DNA of 21,703 nucleotides, from IMG/VR virus record IMGVR_UViG_3300035698_020380, positions 1 through 21,703 of that record. One strand, given 5' to 3'. Source of the DNA: a virus. The translations under genes and the position numbers were made by a program. The notes beneath the pieces are model-generated. The model had not been told where the DNA came from, made no database searches, and saw only the letters and a list, made by a program, of their open reading frames with translations. Of this stretch, positions 981 through 21,606 are shown piece after piece; position 1 is the stretch's first letter, and each line of letters starts with the position of its first letter.

Positions 981-1331
981 CTATAATTCTTCGTCGAATA
1001 TTTCTGAATTGTGTTCAATTGTATATGAATCACAGCCATATTTTTTTTGATCTTCTTCATCTTCTTTACGTAACCCAGTACCAGTGATCGTTTTTTCAAA
1101 TTTAATTTTACCATGACCATGATGTTCACTAATCATAGTCATAAACGCCTTTGTATCTTCTTTATCTTTAAACGCGGCTATGACCTTTACCTCCCCAGGC
1201 TTCGCACACAGCCTGATTTGCCAGAGTAATTCATCATTTGACATTTCTTTGGTCTTCCCATATTTATATGTGAATTTTTGTAATGGTTTATTATAACCTA
1301 TTGGACGATATTCGGCATGTATTTTACCCAT
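981..1331 (-). CDS. Small hypothetical protein coupled to clamp loader
   Basis: Protein of 116 residues that I do not recognise. An ATG 36 bases upstream (1367) is in frame, but I chose ATG 1331 because it shares its A with the TAA stop of the clamp-loader fragment (TAATG), an arrangement repeated at 16602 and 7711 and typical of translational coupling. The protein is charged, with a His-rich patch (SEHHGHGK), a hydrophobic strand KVIAAF and an acidic C-terminus. In T4 the genes after the gp44 gene are 62 (clamp-loader small subunit) and regA; position makes those candidates, but I see no convincing similarity to either. It is probably part of the replication module. Confidence 0.6.
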   Translation of the reverse strand: MGKIHAEYRPIGYNKPLQKFTYKYGKTKEMSNDELLWQIRLCAKPGEVKVIAAFKDKEDTKAFMTMISEHHGHGKIKFEKTITGTGLRKEDEEDQKKYGCDSYTIEHNSEIFDEEL

Positions 1332-2506
1332 TATTTGTTTATTATCGTTTGTATTTTGTAAACACATGAGAGTAATGATATTACTGCATCTACAACTTGT
1401 ACTCGTTGTGCTTGATGTTCAGCAACTGTTACGATTATTTCTGGAATACATTTTACCTTTTCAGGTTTTTCCATTTGAATATATTCTATAAAGTCATTTC
1501 CTAATGCACTTAACACATCATCAACTTTATTTTGATATTCAGATACTAGTAATTGATAGTTTTTAACAGGGTCAAGTGTATTAAAAATTAAATTGAATAC
1601 ATCTCTATAAACTCCGTGGAATTTCTTGACATCTTCAACTGTAATTTTAGTTTTGCCTTCTGCAGCATAACCTTGCAGGATATTAAGCATAGACCTTAAG
1701 TCTGGAAACTTTCTCTTTACTAATTCTAATAAAGCCCGGGGCTCAATATCTAATCCTTCAGCTTTACCTATTTCGTAAAGTCTTTTGATTTGTAACTTCG
1801 TAAGAGTTTTTTCTTCTTCTGAAGTAAAATCAAAATCAATGCACTCAAATCTAGATTGAACTGGAGCAGGAATCTTATTAATATAATTTGTAGTTGCTAT
1901 AAATCTACTGTTAACAGAGAACTGATCCATTGTAGCACGTAATGCTTTTATAAATTGATCACTTACTCCTTCAATTTCATCAAGTATAACTACTTTCATT
2001 CTATTCTGACCGTCCATTATAGATGATGTTGAACAAAAATCTTGAATCTTAGTTCTAATTACATCTACGCTTGTTTCATCAGAAGCATTTATAAAGATAT
2101 AAGGTAATCCTAAATCCTTTACCATTACTTTCGCTGAAGAAGTATTATGAGATAGGATATTATTAGTATAGTATCTTTTATTACCCATTTGATTTAATTC
2201 TAAATCAAACATATTTTCTTCATAACCTAAATCTATTATATTAATAATTTTAGATAAGCCTTCTTTAGTTATTATAGAATTTCCTATACTTAAATCTTTT
2301 AGATATATTTCTTTAAATTTTTCTAAAAAGAATATATGAGTATCTGCACATTTTACCATCAGTCCATTTTCTAAGAAAACTTCATATACTTTATATTTTA
2401 TAGTAGTATGTAATTTCTTAATATCTTCATATCCAGTATCAGTTAATACTTCATAATCATTTATATTAATTGTATTGATAAATTTTTTGTCTGTGTATTT
2501 ATTCAT
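1331..2506 (-). CDS. 44: Clamp-loader ATPase (gp44-like) C-terminal part with split-intein C-fragment
   Basis: Residues 1-121 are an intein C-fragment and residues 122-391 are the C-extein of a sliding-clamp loader AAA+ subunit. The intein part has a block-B-like stretch (LMVKCADTHIFF), a block-F-like MFDLEL and a block-G ending NNILSHN, with the terminal His-Asn needed for Asn cyclisation; the next residue is Thr. The extein resumes as TSSAKVMV, completing a Walker A motif that begins in the separate upstream gene at 3908. It then shows Walker B (VVILDEIEG) and the Arg-finger SRF segment. N-extein (49 residues) plus this extein (270) gives 319 residues, the same length as T4 gp44. The ATG at 2506 overlaps the endonuclease stop by eight bases, suggesting coupled translation. 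Function requires trans-splicing with the N-part. Confidence 0.92.
   Translation of the reverse strand: MNKYTDKKFINTININDYEVLTDTGYEDIKKLHTTIKYKVYEVFLENGLMVKCADTHIFFLEKFKEIYLKDLSIGNSIITKEGLSKIINIIDLGYEENMFDLELNQMGNKRYYTNNILSHNTSSAKVMVKDLGLPYIFINASDETSVDVIRTKIQDFCSTSSIMDGQNRMKVVILDEIEGVSDQFIKALRATMDQFSVNSRFIATTNYINKIPAPVQSRFECIDFDFTSEEEKTLTKLQIKRLYEIGKAEGLDIEPRALLELVKRKFPDLRSMLNILQGYAAEGKTKITVEDVKKFHGVYRDVFNLIFNTLDPVKNYQLLVSEYQNKVDDVLSALGNDFIEYIQMEKPEKVKCIPEIIVTVAEHQAQRVQVVDAVISLLSCVYKIQTIINK
2144..2506 (-). other. Split intein C-fragment (IntC, 121 residues)
   Basis: It runs from the start codon of the clamp-loader C-part to the Asn codon at 2146-2144; the first C-extein codon, ACT (Thr), is at 2143-2141. 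It contains everything from before block B to block G, so the break lies much nearer the N-terminus than in ordinary split inteins. The block-B His is present but the usual TxxH Thr reads as Ala (ADTH). No endonuclease domain is embedded. Confidence 0.88.
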
Positions 2507-3623
2507 TTTTTATAAAATTTAAACATTTAAGTAGAATTTCTTCTTTATTTCTATTATATTCATTTTCCCATATTATTAATAAATTATATCCTTTTTTTTC
2601 AATAAGTTTATTTTTAACAGCATCATATTCCCATATATCTGTAGCATTTTTATTTCTTCTAATTGTAGTAGCATTGTATATGCCAGGATTGCAATGCCAA
2701 TAATCACCATTAAATTCTATAACATTTCTGTTATAAAGAAAATCATATGCATAGGCCCTATTATTATTTTTATCGTATATATATAATTCTTTTTTAGGAA
2801 ATTCTATTTTTAAATTTATACATAAATATTCTATGATATCTTTTGCCCATTTACTTTGATAAGATCTACCATCTCCATTTTTAATAAAATTTGCTCTTAA
2901 AGATTTATTCCATTTCACTTGTCTTTCTTTCCACTTCTTTAAACCTTCTTCTTTGCCATATTTCTTAATACAAGTTTTCTTTGAAAAAGTTGTTTGACGT
3001 TCTTTAAGTTTAGCTTTAGCATCTGATGGTGAATATCCTTTTGCAATCCAATATTCAATCTTATTATCAAATTTTTCAGGATTACTCTTTCTTAGTTTTT
3101 TTAATTTTTCAACACTTTTAATGGATTGCGTTGTTTGAAATTCAGAAACTTTTTTAATTGCAGTATCATTTGAATATCCTTTATTAGTCCAGTGTATTAT
3201 AGTACTAGGGGGTGCAAACGCCTTTTTAATATAATCTTCTGAATATCCATTATCTGTTAAATATTTTTTACTTCTTTTAAATCTATTTTTGACTTTACTA
3301 TTAACAAAACTTTGGAATTCTGAAACATTTTTAGTGGCATCTTCAATTAAATATCCTCTATTAGTCCAGTATTCAATAGAATTTTTTCTTGAATATTTTT
3401 GGGCTAATTTATATTCTTCTATTACTCTATTAGCTATTATTTCAGGGAAAAATGCTTTAGCTTTATTAAAAAAACCTTTTTTTGAATCACATTTAATATT
3501 TGTACATCCTTCAATATGAATATATTTACTAGTATATCGCAGTTTTAAATCACTTTTACATAAATTACACTTTGGAATATATTCCAATTCAAAACGTACT
3601 CGCTGTTTATAAGAAAATAACAT
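2499..3623 (-). CDS. Vsr-like homing endonuclease inside the fractured clamp-loader gene
   Basis: Protein of 374 residues. Residues 17-45 have paired cysteines (CNLC and C-x4-C) resembling a zinc finger. Three related modules near residues 81, 141 and 188 share the pattern I-x-[YH]-W-x-x-[KR]-G-Y followed by about eight residues and a charged helix; these are likely DNA-recognition repeats. The C-terminal 110 residues match the Vsr-type (very-short-patch-repair) nuclease fold used by homing endonucleases of the I-Bth0305I/EDxHD type: D274 in YAYDF, then E283, D287 and H290 in VIEFNGDYWH, and a final LLIIWENE strand. It sits between the two halves of a gene interrupted by a split intein, the hallmark of fractured genes, and probably spreads the arrangement to intein-free alleles. 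It starts 15 bases after a TATATAA element, so it may have its own promoter. Confidence 0.85.
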   Translation of the reverse strand: MLFSYKQRVRFELEYIPKCNLCKSDLKLRYTSKYIHIEGCTNIKCDSKKGFFNKAKAFFPEIIANRVIEEYKLAQKYSRKNSIEYWTNRGYLIEDATKNVSEFQSFVNSKVKNRFKRSKKYLTDNGYSEDYIKKAFAPPSTIIHWTNKGYSNDTAIKKVSEFQTTQSIKSVEKLKKLRKSNPEKFDNKIEYWIAKGYSPSDAKAKLKERQTTFSKKTCIKKYGKEEGLKKWKERQVKWNKSLRANFIKNGDGRSYQSKWAKDIIEYLCINLKIEFPKKELYIYDKNNNRAYAYDFLYNRNVIEFNGDYWHCNPGIYNATTIRRNKNATDIWEYDAVKNKLIEKKGYNLLIIWENEYNRNKEEILLKCLNFIKNE

Positions 3624-3637
3624 ATATCTCTTTTATT

Positions 3638-3645
3638 TTATATAT
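3638..3645 (-). promoter_or_regulatory. TATATAA late-promoter-like element before the Vsr-like endonuclease
   Basis: The minus strand reads AATATATAAAATAAAA, about 15 bases before the ATG at 3623. It matches the element found upstream of other leftward genes. A late promoter here would let the endonuclease be expressed separately from the early clamp-loader gene. Assignment rests on recurrence of the motif. Confidence 0.5.
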
Positions 3646-3662
3646 TATTATTTTACGGGTGA

Positions 3663-3908
3663 CTAGGGCAAAAATCTCATTTTAAACTCGTCAATTGATA
3701 CTTCTTCTATTTTACCTGTATTTTTATTTCTTATATTAATTATAGTATTACCTAGAATACATTTACCTGAACCTGGTCCACCATGAAATAAAAGATGTTG
3801 ATATACACCTTTTTCTAGTTTTTCTTTGATCCTTTCGGGTAATAACATGTCAGAAAGTTTTTCTGGTCTGTATTTGTTTATAAATAATCCGTCTTCTATT
3901 ATACTCAT
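3663..3908 (-). CDS. 44: Clamp-loader ATPase (gp44-like) N-terminal part with split-intein N-fragment
   Basis: Protein of 81 residues: a 49-residue N-extein (FINKYRPEKLSDMLLPERI, then LLFHGGPGSGK) ending precisely at the Walker A lysine, followed by a 32-residue intein N-fragment starting CILGNTIINI, with catalytic Cys at position 1 and a block-A pattern, and ending in a TAG stop. The missing Thr and the rest of the AAA+ domain are supplied by the gene starting at 2506. The start is ATG 3908; the upstream sequence is A-rich without a Shine-Dalgarno. An N-fragment of about 32 residues places this among atypically split inteins, such as the terminase intein AceL-TerL, rather than the usual split of about 100 residues. 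Alone this product cannot bind ATP. Confidence 0.9.
   Translation of the reverse strand: MSIIEDGLFINKYRPEKLSDMLLPERIKEKLEKGVYQHLLFHGGPGSGKCILGNTIINIRNKNTGKIEEVSIDEFKMRFLP
3666..3761 (-). other. Split intein N-fragment (IntN, 32 residues)
   Basis: It begins at the TGT (Cys) codon 3761-3759, directly after the AAA codon of the Walker A lysine, and ends before the TAG at 3665. It carries only block A. Together with the 121-residue IntC it makes a mini-intein of about 153 residues, a normal size for an intein lacking an endonuclease domain. Confidence 0.88.
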
Positions 3909-13272: not shown

Positions 13273-14049
13273 TTATTTTTTAAATTTATAATAATTTCCT
13301 TTATATAATACAGAATTTCTACATGCTTTAAACACCATTCTCTTATTTAAATCTTTGATGTTTTCTAAATCATTTACATCAAAGCGCATGAGCTCTTCCA
13401 TATCTTTATTGTATTGTATAATCTTTTCTGTATGTTTATTCCATGGAATATCTACACGTTTCTTATACTTCTGCTTTATATATTTCTTTTTATTCTTATA
13501 TTCCCAGATATATCCACCTGCAGTTCTGTTTTCTGATCTACAACATCTGTCAATATGTAGTATACCTGTTTTATCGTTTGCATCTTTTACACTTCCATGC
13601 TCTTTTACAAATACCCCATCTAGCGTATACTGTAATACAATACGCTTCTTATCAGAATTTAATGTTTTATTCTGTCTTAGCTTTAAGCTTATTAATTCAT
13701 AGTTTGATAATTGGGCGCCAGGTAAAACGTTTGATAAAGGTCCTTTCTTTTTAATAATTCGTCCTATCGTTGATATAATTTCTTTTTCTAAATTAAAAGC
13801 ATATACTTCATCTAGATTCTTATGTATTATTTCTATTACAGGCTCTAAATTATTATCAAGTATCTTTTGTATTATTCTACCTTTAATTTTATTTCTAACT
13901 CTTCCATTTTTAGTATTTCTTAAATGATGCTTATATCTATTCTTTAATTTACTTACACCAATATAAAATGGTTCATATTCAAATGAGTAAGAACCATAAT
14001 TAAATGTTCCAGGGTTAAGAGGATTTAAATACACATAGATATAATACAT
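13273..14049 (-). CDS. GIY-YIG homing endonuclease between dead terminase and portal
   Basis: Protein of 258 residues. The N-terminal GIY-YIG nuclease shows YYIYVYLNP, EPFYIGVSKLKNRYKHH with the catalytic Arg region, and EKEIISTIGR with the metal-binding Glu. A NUMOD/IENR-type DNA-binding segment follows: VLQYTLDGVFVKEHGSVKDA, then RTAGGYIWEY. The C-terminus is MVFKACRNSVLYKGNYYKFKK. It is paralogous to the endonuclease at 17078-17911: both share YVYL-P-x-x-PG and EPFY[VI]G and similar C-termini. It lies between the terminase-like and portal genes and is free-standing, so it probably targets one of the flanking genes in related phages. Confidence 0.88.
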   Translation of the reverse strand: MYYIYVYLNPLNPGTFNYGSYSFEYEPFYIGVSKLKNRYKHHLRNTKNGRVRNKIKGRIIQKILDNNLEPVIEIIHKNLDEVYAFNLEKEIISTIGRIIKKKGPLSNVLPGAQLSNYELISLKLRQNKTLNSDKKRIVLQYTLDGVFVKEHGSVKDANDKTGILHIDRCCRSENRTAGGYIWEYKNKKKYIKQKYKKRVDIPWNKHTEKIIQYNKDMEELMRFDVNDLENIKDLNKRMVFKACRNSVLYKGNYYKFKK

Positions 14050-14085: not shown

Positions 14086-14814
14086 TTATTTAAAATTTAA
14101 ATCATATTCTTGATTGAAATATTCATTACCTATAACTTCAATTTGTTTATTTTTCCATATTTCATCTCTACTAGGTACTTCCCACCAATATGTTCTTAAT
14201 GTAGTAAAATTATTCTTTTCAGGATCTCCAAACGATCTTTCACTATCTTGTACTAATTTAATAAAATGATTATTTCCATTTGGTGTAGATTTAATTATTA
14301 TCTTAGAATCAGCTAATGCTGAAACTATTGGAATTATACTCTGATATACATTTTTAGTAGTACTAGGAATTGCTTTTGCAAAATTATCTAATATTACTTG
14401 ATTATAATTTCTTGCAAATGCCAATGACTTTGTATAAACAGTTGTATGTAATATTGAACTGTTATCAAATGATATATTTTTATTATTATAGCTTCTAGTT
14501 TTATTTTGCAAGAAACTCGGAAGCTGTTCGTAATATTTTCTAAAAATATGATTGAATTCTGTACTCTGACATCTTTTAGTACTTACATATATTACGCCTT
14601 TATCTACATTAAATGTTAAATAGTGTAATATAAGTATTGCAAGCGTATTAGTTGTCTCAGTTTGAGGAGAAGACATAAATATATTAAATTTATTTTGTTC
14701 GTAATGTTTAACTTGTTCTTTTTGATATTTATGTAATTTAATATTAAGATATTCTTCTATAAAATATTTAATATCATTCTTACACTTAATATATTCTTCT
14801 GTTATATTTTCCAT
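14086..14814 (-). CDS. Degenerate terminase large-subunit ATPase-domain protein
   Basis: Protein of 242 residues alignable by eye to the ATPase domain of T4 gp17: LHKYQKEQV, ILILHYLTFNVDKGVIYVS, YYEQLPSFLQ, ISFDNSSIL, YQSIIPIVSALADSKIIIKS and STPNGNNHF (the coupling motif). The catalytic residues are gone: the Walker A equivalent at 49-55 reads SPQTETT where gp17 has SRQLGKTT (Arg and Lys lost), and Walker B at 140-144 reads VILDN where the Glu is expected. The whole C-terminal nuclease domain is absent. It therefore cannot be the packaging motor. It has no internal stop, so it may be a maintained pseudo-enzyme, for example a portal-binding or regulatory decoy, or a remnant shortened by mobile-element activity. 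The true terminase must lie outside the window. Confidence 0.75.
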   Translation of the reverse strand: MENITEEYIKCKNDIKYFIEEYLNIKLHKYQKEQVKHYEQNKFNIFMSSPQTETTNTLAILILHYLTFNVDKGVIYVSTKRCQSTEFNHIFRKYYEQLPSFLQNKTRSYNNKNISFDNSSILHTTVYTKSLAFARNYNQVILDNFAKAIPSTTKNVYQSIIPIVSALADSKIIIKSTPNGNNHFIKLVQDSERSFGDPEKNNFTTLRTYWWEVPSRDEIWKNKQIEVIGNEYFNQEYDLNFK

Positions 14815-17077: not shown

Positions 17078-17911
17078 TTACACAGTGTACACGCCGTCGC
17101 TATCCGTACTATGGCTGTCTAGACTTATAGTGCCCTTTTTATAAATTAATCCGTTGTGTTCTATTGAACCTTCTTCTATGCATTTATGTACTAACTTTCT
17201 ATTCATACGATGTTCTGAGTGTTTTAAATCTTTAGCTGATAGATATCGAGCTATCAATTTATTATTTTTATATATTTCAAATTCAGTTCTGTTTGGCATT
17301 GCAAGTTTTGTAGCTATAGAAATATTTTTCTTTCTATCTTCATCTAATTCTATACCTTTTAATTTTTCACTTATCTTTTTGCGAGTAGCCTTTGATAGAA
17401 TTTTACCAGTATGTTTATTATTTTCACCTACATACTTTCCTTTAAGTGCTTTGCTTATTTTTAAACGGGTCGTATTATTGTGAGTTTGACCTAGTTTAGA
17501 GTTTTTAATTTTATTTTTTGTTTCTTCAGTATGTTCATAACCTGAAGATGTTTCACCACCATTCGTTTGATTAACAAGAGGTCCTTCATGAATTAACCAA
17601 TTCTTATTTCTACCAATAGTAGCTATTAATTTTATCTCTAGATCTAATGCATCTCGTTCTAATAAATTATCAGTAACTTTGAAAATAATTGGATCAGTTC
17701 CTATTTCTCTTTTTATTTTCTTAATCTTATTAACTTTTTCAGAATGTTTAGTTTCGTATAAATGTCTGGTTAATCTATTAGTAGAACCTTTACCTACATA
17801 AAATGGTTCATGGTCGAAGCTGAATTCCCCGTATATATATTCACCTGGTTTTCTAGGATCTAAATAAACATACGTATAATACTCATTATTATTGGGTTTA
17901 ATATATGACAT
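17078..17911 (-). CDS. GIY-YIG homing endonuclease fused in frame to a duplicate sigma-gene tail
   Basis: Protein of about 277 residues from ATG 17911; an ATG at 17932 is also in frame, but a TATATAA element lies between them, so I favour the inner start. N-terminal GIY-YIG nuclease: YYTYVYLDPRKPGEYIYGEF, EPFYVGKGSTNRLTRH, DLEIKLIATIGR. The centre carries NUMOD3-type repeats (TEETKNKIKNSKLG, TTRLKISKALKGKY, ATRKKISEKLKGI), then a NUMOD1-like segment. The natural C-terminus appears to be HNGLIYKK, since the paralogue at 13273 ends YYKFKK. Here it continues into GTISLDSHSTDSDGVYTV, identical to the end of the neighbouring sigma protein, and uses that stop codon. Confidence 0.88.
   Translation of the reverse strand: MSYIKPNNNEYYTYVYLDPRKPGEYIYGEFSFDHEPFYVGKGSTNRLTRHLYETKHSEKVNKIKKIKREIGTDPIIFKVTDNLLERDALDLEIKLIATIGRNKNWLIHEGPLVNQTNGGETSSGYEHTEETKNKIKNSKLGQTHNNTTRLKISKALKGKYVGENNKHTGKILSKATRKKISEKLKGIELDEDRKKNISIATKLAMPNRTEFEIYKNNKLIARYLSAKDLKHSEHRMNRKLVHKCIEEGSIEHNGLIYKKGTISLDSHSTDSDGVYTV
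17081..17137 (-). repeat. Sigma-gene 3' tail, downstream copy
   Basis: Fifty-seven bases encoding KGTISLDSHSTDSDGVYTV, now the end of the endonuclease gene. It is directly repeated at 17956-18012 with six base differences, all synonymous. Because it directly abuts the gp4-like gene, it is probably the original 3' end of the sigma gene, displaced by the mobile gene. Confidence 0.9.
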
Positions 17912-17918
17912 TTTATTT

Positions 17919-17926
17919 TTATATAT
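17919..17926 (-). promoter_or_regulatory. TATATAA late-promoter-like element at the start of the endonuclease
   Basis: The minus strand reads CGATATATAAAAATAAAATG, with the final ATG at 17911. If active as a promoter it argues that translation begins at 17911, not 17932. Confidence 0.45.
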
Positions 17927-17952
17927 CGTCATCTTATTCTAACCCTTAGTGA

Positions 17953-18333
17953 TTATACCGTGTAAACACCGTCACTATCCGTACTATGACTGTCTAGACT
18001 TATAGTGCCCTTGTACTTTTTTGGATGCAGTTTATTCCACCCTTTGGCGAAACCCTTCTTAGAGATTTCTGTAAAGTATGCAAATGCATTCTTATATTTA
18101 GGATTAAAACTTCTCCAATATTTAAGTAAATCTAAGTACGCTGATGATAAACAATCGTCTCTATCATCTGTATTGATATACTTCATTTTTGTAATAGCAT
18201 GTTCTGCAATGTTAGTAAGCATACATAATGCGTCTGGTGTTAATTCATCCAATTCCTTACATTTAACAATCTCTGCGTACAGTAATTTGTTTTTGATAGG
18301 CCATTGAACATTTGATCCTCTAATTTGTGCCAT
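17953..18333 (-). CDS. 55: Late-transcription sigma factor (gp55-like)
   Basis: Protein of 126 residues (T4 gp55 is 185). It resembles the sigma region-2 core of gp55: DDRDDCLSSAYLDLLKYWRS, then FNPKYKNAFAYFTEISKKGF and GWNKLHPKKYKG (T4: [20 protein letters not shown]). This segment binds core RNA polymerase and the late -10 element. The C-terminus is GTISLDSHSTDSDGVYTV, duplicated downstream. The gene follows a terminator and a TATATAA element, so it starts its own transcription unit. The start is ATG 18333. It is shorter than T4 gp55, mainly at the C-terminus, where T4 carries its sliding-clamp-binding tail. Confidence 0.8.
   Translation of the reverse strand: MAQIRGSNVQWPIKNKLLYAEIVKCKELDELTPDALCMLTNIAEHAITKMKYINTDDRDDCLSSAYLDLLKYWRSFNPKYKNAFAYFTEISKKGFAKGWNKLHPKKYKGTISLDSHSTDSDGVYTV
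17956..18012 (-). repeat. Sigma-gene 3' tail, upstream copy
   Basis: Last 19 sense codons of the gp55-like gene, a direct repeat of 17081-17137 (51 of 57 bases identical). It was probably brought in with the endonuclease and restored the sigma reading frame at the insertion point. Confidence 0.9.
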
Positions 18334-20775: not shown

Positions 20776-20783
20776 TTATATAT
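20776..20783 (-). promoter_or_regulatory. TATATAA late-promoter-like element overlapping the endonuclease stop
   Basis: The minus strand reads TGATATATAATAAAATAATT, then TAAACTATATG. It forms the last codons and stop of the endonuclease gene and lies 18 bases before ATG 20758. It is almost identical to the plus-strand element at 3953. Confidence 0.55.
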
Positions 20784-21606
20784 CATTATTTCTATGCTTA
20801 CAATTGTCAAAATGCCATCTAGGCATTGTTGCATTACCACCTTCTTTACCGCAATGTGGGCATTTTACTATCTTTTGCTTTATACCCTTGTATTTACCCT
20901 TTCTGCTTTCACTCATTTTTTTTAACGTTTCAGCTGATCTTTTTTTACCTTTCCAATATTTAGGATTCTTATCTCCTTTTTTAGCATCAGACATTTTTTT
21001 CTTAGTTTCATCAGAATATGGATTTTCTAAATCATGAGTCCAATGTTTTTCACCAGATCTAGATTCACTCATAGCTTTCTTAGATTCTTCTGTATGTTTT
21101 TTACCAGTCATAGGACCAGTCTTACCATACCATATATTTTTATCTCCTTTTTTTGCCTCAGACATTTTCTGTTTTGCCTCATCAGAAAACTTTCGTCCTT
21201 TATTTATTTCACTTAATAATTTTCTAGTTGAATCTTTAATAACTCTAGATTTACTAGCTTCACTGATTTTTTGTAGAGCTTCTGGAGTATGCTTACATCC
21301 AGTAAAATCTGGACCAGACGCAGTCTGCTTGGCTTTATTATAAAAATTTTCATTAGCACCTACATCATATTTTTCATGAAGCCTGATTTCTTCTAACATA
21401 GATTCTTTACGAATACTATGATTACTTAAAATAGTATAATTATATTTTTGAGGATTTCTTTTCTGATCTCTTATAAAAGATTTATCAGTACTGCTTGAGA
21501 AATATTTAATACCTAAATCATTTTCGGGTTTACATCTAGAACTTCTAGTTCCAATATATTTTCTATTAAGCTTGATATTAGTAATTAGATATACGTAGTG
21601 ATACAT
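20776..21606 (-). CDS. GIY-YIG (SegA-like) homing endonuclease with zinc-finger tail
   Basis: Protein of 276 residues. GIY-YIG core: YHYVYLITNIKLNRKYIGTR, then SMLEEIRLHEKYDVGANENF with the catalytic Glu. From about residue 105, several NUMOD3 repeats (TPEALQKISEASK, SDEAKQKMSEAKKG, TEESKKAMSESRSG, SDETKKKMSDAKKG, SAETLKKMSESRKG) contact the DNA minor groove. The C-terminus is a zinc finger, CPHCGKEGGNATMPRWHFDN followed by CKH. The whole is typical of T4-type Seg proteins. It is free-standing between a gene beyond the right edge and the gp15-like gene, and has its own upstream TATATAA element. Confidence 0.9.
   Translation of the reverse strand: MYHYVYLITNIKLNRKYIGTRSSRCKPENDLGIKYFSSSTDKSFIRDQKRNPQKYNYTILSNHSIRKESMLEEIRLHEKYDVGANENFYNKAKQTASGPDFTGCKHTPEALQKISEASKSRVIKDSTRKLLSEINKGRKFSDEAKQKMSEAKKGDKNIWYGKTGPMTGKKHTEESKKAMSESRSGEKHWTHDLENPYSDETKKKMSDAKKGDKNPKYWKGKKRSAETLKKMSESRKGKYKGIKQKIVKCPHCGKEGGNATMPRWHFDNCKHRNNDI

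Follow-up and report, generated by a model that had tools for sequence, protein, structure and literature searches.

In the window analysed here (the entire IMG/VR virus record IMGVR_UViG_3300035698_020380, 21,703 bases, a fragment of a phage genome), the gene for the sliding-clamp loader subunit gp44 is fractured between the lysine and the threonine of its Walker A motif. The two gene pieces carry the halves of an atypically split intein, and a predicted EDxHD/Vsr-like endonuclease gene lies between them. We propose, with a probability of roughly 0.9, that gp44 is interrupted by a split intein that trans-splices it and that has spread by homing. Such a fractured gp44, with a split intein in the Walker A motif and a Vsr-like endonuclease between the halves, had been suggested by the first-pass annotation, which was made from the letters alone; sequence, fold and comparative evidence now agree on it.

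All parts of the locus are encoded on the minus strand. Gene A (3908..3663, 81 amino acids (aa)) consists of the N-extein, i.e. the first 49 aa of gp44 up to the Walker A sequence HGGPGSGK (3762..3908), and the 32-aa N-terminal intein half (IntN; 3663..3761), which starts with Cys1, reads CILGNTIINIRNKNTGKIEEVSIDEFKMRFLP and is followed by a stop codon. A spacer of 39 nucleotides (nt; 3624..3662) leads to the endonuclease gene (2499..3623, 374 aa), the catalytic domain of which is predicted at about residues 275-374 (YDF...IEFNGDYWH...YD..K). Its last 8 nt are at the same time the first 8 nt of gene C (2506..1331, 391 aa). Gene C begins with the 121-aa C-terminal intein half (IntC; 2144..2506), which ends in RYYTNNILSHN and has a block B His57, a penultimate His120 and a terminal Asn121. 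The C-extein of 270 aa plus stop codon (1331..2143) resumes with TSSAKVMV, the +1 residue being the Walker A Thr (TSSAK), and includes Walker B (VILDE) and the Gp44 lid domain. Thus, the gene pair described initially, with its GGPGSGK end, 32-residue tail, 121-residue head closing on NNILSHN and TSSAKVMV restart, is present in all its parts, and all reading frames of the locus are open. Searches of the window for RNA families and tRNAs gave none, and there is hence no hint of a group I intron as the cause of the break.

The host gene is a T4-type gp44 or replication factor C (RFC) small-subunit clamp loader, an AAA+ ATPase of about 320 aa with Walker A and B motifs and a gp44 lid. When the exteins are joined, the expected uninterrupted Walker A motif and a length of 319 aa are indeed obtained, and the junction is free of gaps in an alignment with eight orthologues of 317-319 aa (seven uninterrupted genes and that of locus L014, itself joined from a gene fractured elsewhere). 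Gene C matches the T4-type gp44 structure PDB 8unf (319 aa) with an E-value of 1.1e-20, as well as the Pfam families AAA (1.8e-9) and Gp44_lid (5.1e-9), and its C-extein retains the Walker B and lid motifs. Residues 8-73 of gene A match the NCBIfam RFC small subunit; NCBIfam models of the archaeal RFC small subunit match both window genes, with matches extending beyond the junction. The gap-free joined alignment, the gp44 and gp41-1 intein matches of gene C and the recurrence of the three-piece layout in independent contigs (see below) rule out chance.

For IntC, profile and fold comparisons point to the same relatives. The gp41-1 intein matches residues 8-121 of gene C (E = 2.5e-9) and the 153 joined residues of IntN and IntC (4.9e-10), and a profile of 44 IntC relatives retrieves gp41-1 (1.1e-11) and VidaL (2.7e-11). 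The AlphaFold model of IntC, with a mean predicted local distance difference test score (pLDDT) of 92, is most similar to gp41-1 (3.9e-7) and VidaL (2.3e-6), followed by other inteins, and IntC is accordingly assigned a Hint fold. The residues expected of class 1 are present: a Cys1 nucleophile, a penultimate His, a terminal Asn and a +1 Thr (SHN/T, the slash marking the splice junction). Across 126 distinct IntC sequences of the wider family described below, Asn121 is invariant, the penultimate His is found in 124, and the +1 residue is always Ser or Thr. With 32 + 121 aa and a break near the N-terminus, the intein is atypically split with a short IntN. Atypically split inteins with an IntN of 15-37 aa have been published (PMC10189870, PMC11766414), for example AceL-TerL with 25 aa (PMC11766414) and PolB16 with 15 aa (PMC10189870). 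The length of 32 aa therefore stands as first noted, whereas its description as very short does not make it unusual: the median of the family is 35 aa (100 split cases), and shorter ones are published.

The 374-aa reading frame between the halves is placed in the EDxHD/Vsr-like group and predicted to be an endonuclease, because a profile of 36 relatives matches I-Bth0305I (PDB 3r3p; E = 0.001; Vsr, 1vsr/1odg, is matched weakly), because 3r3p is also the best Foldseek match of its AlphaFold model (pLDDT 88; probability 0.99, but E = 0.11), and because a core YDF...IEFNGDYWH...D..K is conserved in its C-terminal part. Homologues occur in fractured genes, and more distant kin was found in further Walker A genes that are fractured: in PhoH of the huge phage LR756500.1, in a RecA/UvsX-like gene of Pseudomonas phage PA5oct and in the gp41-like helicase of Vibrio phage VmeM-32, where the break lies two residues before the Lys (G/xGK). 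An endonuclease relative in Caulobacter phage Cr30 is located directly upstream of an uninterrupted terL without an intein.

The same Lys/Thr fracture of gp44 was detected in five other contigs, representing three further distinct sequences. The loci L181, L183 and L184 (near-identical) and L182 contain a three-piece gp44 broken at the same bond, with an IntN of 29-30 aa and, in L181-L183, spacers of 55-58 nt; compared with the window, their IntC is 50% and their endonucleases are 42-45% identical. In L105, the split intein is present with only 176 nt between the two genes. All that this stretch retains of the endonuclease gene is its last ~50 codons; the endonuclease has thus decayed, whereas the split intein persists. 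Among the gp44-bearing loci fetched, 83 contigs have an uninterrupted gp44 and represent empty sites. Ratios of nonsynonymous to synonymous substitution rates (dN/dS) between the gp44 loci amount to 0.18-0.35 for IntC, 0.19-0.67 for IntN and 0.07-0.27 for the C-extein; they were obtained only where dS was finite and are rough, dS being near saturation, and suggest, in approximate terms, purifying constraint on the intein halves. No second gp44 besides the two halves was found in the records of L105 and L181-L184 (all fragments) or in the 462 kb of LR756500.1. The gp44 of the latter (L014) shares 60% identity in the C-terminal part that was compared, and its break follows Walker B (VILDE/CDGAS) rather than Walker A, with another open reading frame between the halves. 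Its intein is split in the usual manner, with an IntN of ~100 aa and a short IntC ending THN/C. Within this phage group, gp44 thus has two fracture sites, one at Walker A and one after Walker B.

We infer an active intein, an active endonuclease with gp44 as its target, and a replication dependent on splicing. According to our proposal, a naturally split class 1-like intein resides in the P-loop of gp44, and two precursors, gp44(1-49)-IntN and IntC-gp44(50-319), would be translated separately. Pairing of the intein halves into a Hint domain would bring the precursors together; Cys1 would then attack the carbonyl of Lys49, followed by acyl transfer to the +1 Thr, cyclisation of Asn121 and an O-to-N shift. 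The product would be a clamp loader of 319 aa in which Walker A is continuous (GGPGSGKTSS). Judging from the known role of Walker A, ATP binding is not to be expected of unspliced gp44, since IntN and IntC interrupt the P-loop. The free-standing endonuclease would act as mobility partner: in gp44 alleles lacking the intein, it would cut close to the Walker A codons, and repair of the double-strand break would copy the whole block of split intein and endonuclease into the cut allele.

Four observations weigh against this interpretation. IntN alone gave no significant match to any library model; the comparison of both parts with intein profiles, which had been recommended as a check, thus succeeded for IntC (gp41-1, VidaL) and failed for IntN, which is assigned by its position, its Cys1 and a motif (C...T.I.IRNKKTGEI) that is present in the N-halves of other family members (100 N-halves recovered). 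Block B reads A-D-T-H in the window instead of T-x-x-H. Since Ala54 and His57 are invariant and Asp55 is nearly invariant in the 126 distinct relatives, we regard A-D-x-H as characteristic of the family. In block F, the window has Lys110 at a position where 89 of the 126 relatives have His, 18 Arg and eight others likewise Lys. This His is common but not strictly defining, and for its absence we use the label class 1-like; the active AceL NrdHF intein also lacks the block F His (PMC7891396). Finally, the window record is a fragment of 21.7 kb, and an intact gp44 may lie elsewhere in the genome of this phage.

The Lys at block F and the restriction to a 21.7-kb fragment are also what would speak for a dead or very slow intein, i.e. 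a decaying gene pair with a functional gp44 elsewhere in the genome, as would the TerL intein of one huge-phage relative that ends in SSQ and not in HN. We think this quite unlikely: the frames are open, the Walker B and lid motifs persist in the C-extein, many relatives also have Lys or Arg at the block F position, and neither the five homologous records nor LR756500.1 contain a second gp44. Another scenario is fission without splicing: gp44 would have been broken by the endonuclease, its two chains would associate non-covalently into a working ATPase, and the intein-like tails would be inert remnants (compare nrdA of phage Aeh1 and gene 43 of Aeromonas phage 25, both of them split). Assembly of unspliced products from genes split by an endonuclease is documented (PMC2988022). 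However, the tails have an intein fold, and Cys1, the block B His, the terminal HN and the +1 Thr are kept in relatives that are 50-64% identical in IntC. In addition, 32 + 121 foreign residues between the Walker A Lys and Thr are expected to abolish ATP binding, and L105 has kept both intein halves without an endonuclease, all of which makes this scenario very improbable. That unrelated phage fragments were joined during assembly might be suspected for a metagenomic contig such as the window, but the same three-gene layout with the same codon boundary recurs in contigs from separate records, and the block is flanked by the neighbours expected for the clade, an NFGW-type protein (163-190 aa) upstream and a 5'-3' exonuclease downstream; the chance of an artefact is thus next to nil. 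Both the assembly artefact and fission without splicing were rejected on the evidence from recurrence, fold and residues.

The gp44 intein belongs to a family dedicated to Walker A, which is a larger result than the gp44 case itself. Running the IntC profile over the fetched loci yielded 126 distinct IntC sequences, the C-exteins of which were assigned to the terminase large subunit TerL (72), DnaB-like helicases (20), the second ATPase domain of Clp (17), SbcC/gp46 (7), gp44 (4), the first domain of ClpB-type proteins (4) and an AAA protein not assigned further (2). Of the +1 residues, 96 are Thr and 30 are Ser. An N-half ending in GK at the junction was recovered for 100 of the 126, with an IntN of 27-70 aa (median 35). 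As the search pattern demanded the GK end, it is not independent evidence, in contrast to the Ser or Thr at +1 in all 126. In 85 of these 100 split cases the interval between the halves fits an endonuclease gene, with a match to the endonuclease profile in 82, and in 13 it is shorter than 250 nt. Eight were scored as contiguous, including TerL inteins of cultured Ackermannviridae; one of them, L152, is doubtful for its implausibly long IntN. All annotated relatives in cultured phages are located in TerL, among the 60 best and 60 spread of 370 matches, and the GTDB genomes contributed only eight loci, mostly on short contigs of metagenome-assembled genomes.

On a tree of IntC (119 columns, quick method, low resolution), the host genes are strongly but not perfectly clustered, requiring 16 changes compared to 50.9 after shuffling and a minimum of 6, which would fit a long tie to one gene with an occasional change of host gene. 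The window intein stands beside a TerL intein in the quick tree; this is not taken as evidence for a separate jump from TerL to gp44, because the tree constrained to a gp44 clade scores better. Monophyly of the four gp44 inteins is not rejected, its log-likelihood being 54 above that of the free quick tree. At the level of DNA, the 107 junctions examined show no signature at the insertion site: the codons used for the Gly and Lys of Walker A and for the +1 residue are close to background and give no sign that synonymous positions define the target. Taken together, we consider it probable, with a good deal more reserve than for gp44 itself, that one split-intein lineage with its own EDxHD/Vsr-like endonucleases has specialised on the Walker A Lys/Ser or Lys/Thr bond and has moved among at least seven different genes or domains for P-loop ATPases in large phages. 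In that case, the gp44 copy would represent the arrival of one branch at the replication clamp loader.

Several loci deviate in detail. In LR756500.1, at least three ATPase genes are fractured (gp44, TerL and PhoH). Its TerL (L265, 190000-200500) shows a Walker A fracture with an endonuclease between the halves; the IntC ends GILSSQ/T, with Gln for Asn and no penultimate His. The inteins of L017 and L225 have a terminal LN in place of HN. Vibrio phage vB_VmeM-32 (L019, L022) has several genes that are fractured or contain inteins, namely TerL, a RecA/UvsX-like gene and a gp41-like helicase. Its TerL gene begins with an IntC and carries a second intein at Walker B, and the TerL IntN was not found just upstream.

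The type of arrangement is known: split inteins with intervening endonucleases in fractured genes have been described (Dassa et al. 2009, to the extent cited in PMC11766414). Like the gp44 locus, AceL NrdHF comprises two open reading frames with intein halves and a free endonuclease gene between them (PMC7891396), but its intein is of class 3 and has the usual split position (98 + 48 aa), and its enzyme is of the GIY-YIG type, as opposed to the class 1-like intein of 32 + 121 aa and the EDxHD/Vsr-like protein of gp44. A short IntN with a long IntC is shared with AceL-TerL and GOS-TerL (PMC11766414), PolB16 OarG (PMC10189870) and VidaL (PDB 6vgv), the last being among the nearest solved structures to the window IntC by profile and fold. 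Unlike in the window, none of the hosts of AceL-TerL, GOS-TerL and PolB16 is a clamp loader. AceL-TerL presumably resides at a different TerL site (with a +1 Cys) and not at Walker A. Closest to IntC among the solved structures is gp41-1 (PDB 6qaz; 33% identity, TM-score 0.77), which derives from a phage helicase gene and not from gp44. We take gp41-1 to be split at the usual place near the C-terminus.

With respect to the insertion site, the bond between the Lys and Thr of the P-loop is a 'classic' position for inteins (PMC5050341). The contiguous TerL1-a intein of mycobacteriophages occupies the same Walker A site according to PMC5050341, a likeness based on the published site and not on sequence. 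TerL inteins of Ackermannviridae (Klebsiella phage Magnus and Vibrio phages Kuja, VPALA and VP-1) interrupt the same Walker A Lys/Thr bond and are 38-43% identical to IntC, and that of Magnus (159 aa) is similar to the window intein in total length; they differ in being contiguous and cis-splicing and in residing in TerL. Archaeal RFC small subunits (NCBIfam PRK04132 models) are homologous clamp-loader subunits made as single-gene precursors, with models of 852-1437 positions. In view of this length and of general background, the models are taken to include inteins. The window differs from them by its split intein, its phage origin and its free EDxHD-type enzyme, the likeness being drawn through the models and not through intein sequences. 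Insertion between Lys and Thr of a clamp loader, presented as special by the first-pass annotation, is therefore confirmed as to the site but loses some of its singularity, the site being classic and intein-type archaeal RFC models matching both halves. The open-licence literature searched yielded no description of a phage clamp loader with a split intein, in agreement with the initial impression that no such case had been described, and none of a multi-gene Walker A intein family of this kind. New are gp44 as a host gene and a Walker A family of this size and breadth.

Elsewhere in the window, three further endonuclease-like genes of the GIY-YIG/NUMOD3 type are encoded on the minus strand (13273-14049, 17078-17932 and 20776-21606), which brings the number of mobile endonuclease genes within these 21.7 kb to four. 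A gp55-like late sigma factor gene (17953-18333) is followed downstream by the GIY-YIG endonuclease gene at 17078-17932, both on the minus strand; their final 60 nt are 90% identical, with the tail KGTISLDSHSTDSDGVYTV. Such a pattern would be left by an insertion of the endonuclease gene at the 3' terminus of gene 55 with copying of that terminus. At 14086-14814 (minus strand), adjoining a GIY-YIG gene and the portal gene, a 242-aa TerL-like protein is encoded that comprises the ATPase half only and has lost Walker A (SSPQTETTN) and Walker B (VILDN). As a similar degenerate TerL copy of 272 aa is located directly downstream of the true fractured TerL in LR756500.1, the truncated version may not be junk but a partner that is conserved.

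With gp44, the clamp loader joins the genes that phages break with split inteins, and it is broken at the most sensitive bond of the protein. Since empty, endonuclease-bearing and endonuclease-lost copies exist among related phages, gain and loss of the element can be traced. If they are active, the 126 IntC sequences, for 100 of which a short IntN was recovered, would supply protein labelling with split inteins of the short-IntN type. The family further allows one to ask how homing, which acts on a DNA sequence, reaches the same protein motif in unrelated genes. If one lineage has indeed moved among these ATPase genes, several ATP-driven machines of large phages would be made only by protein trans-splicing.

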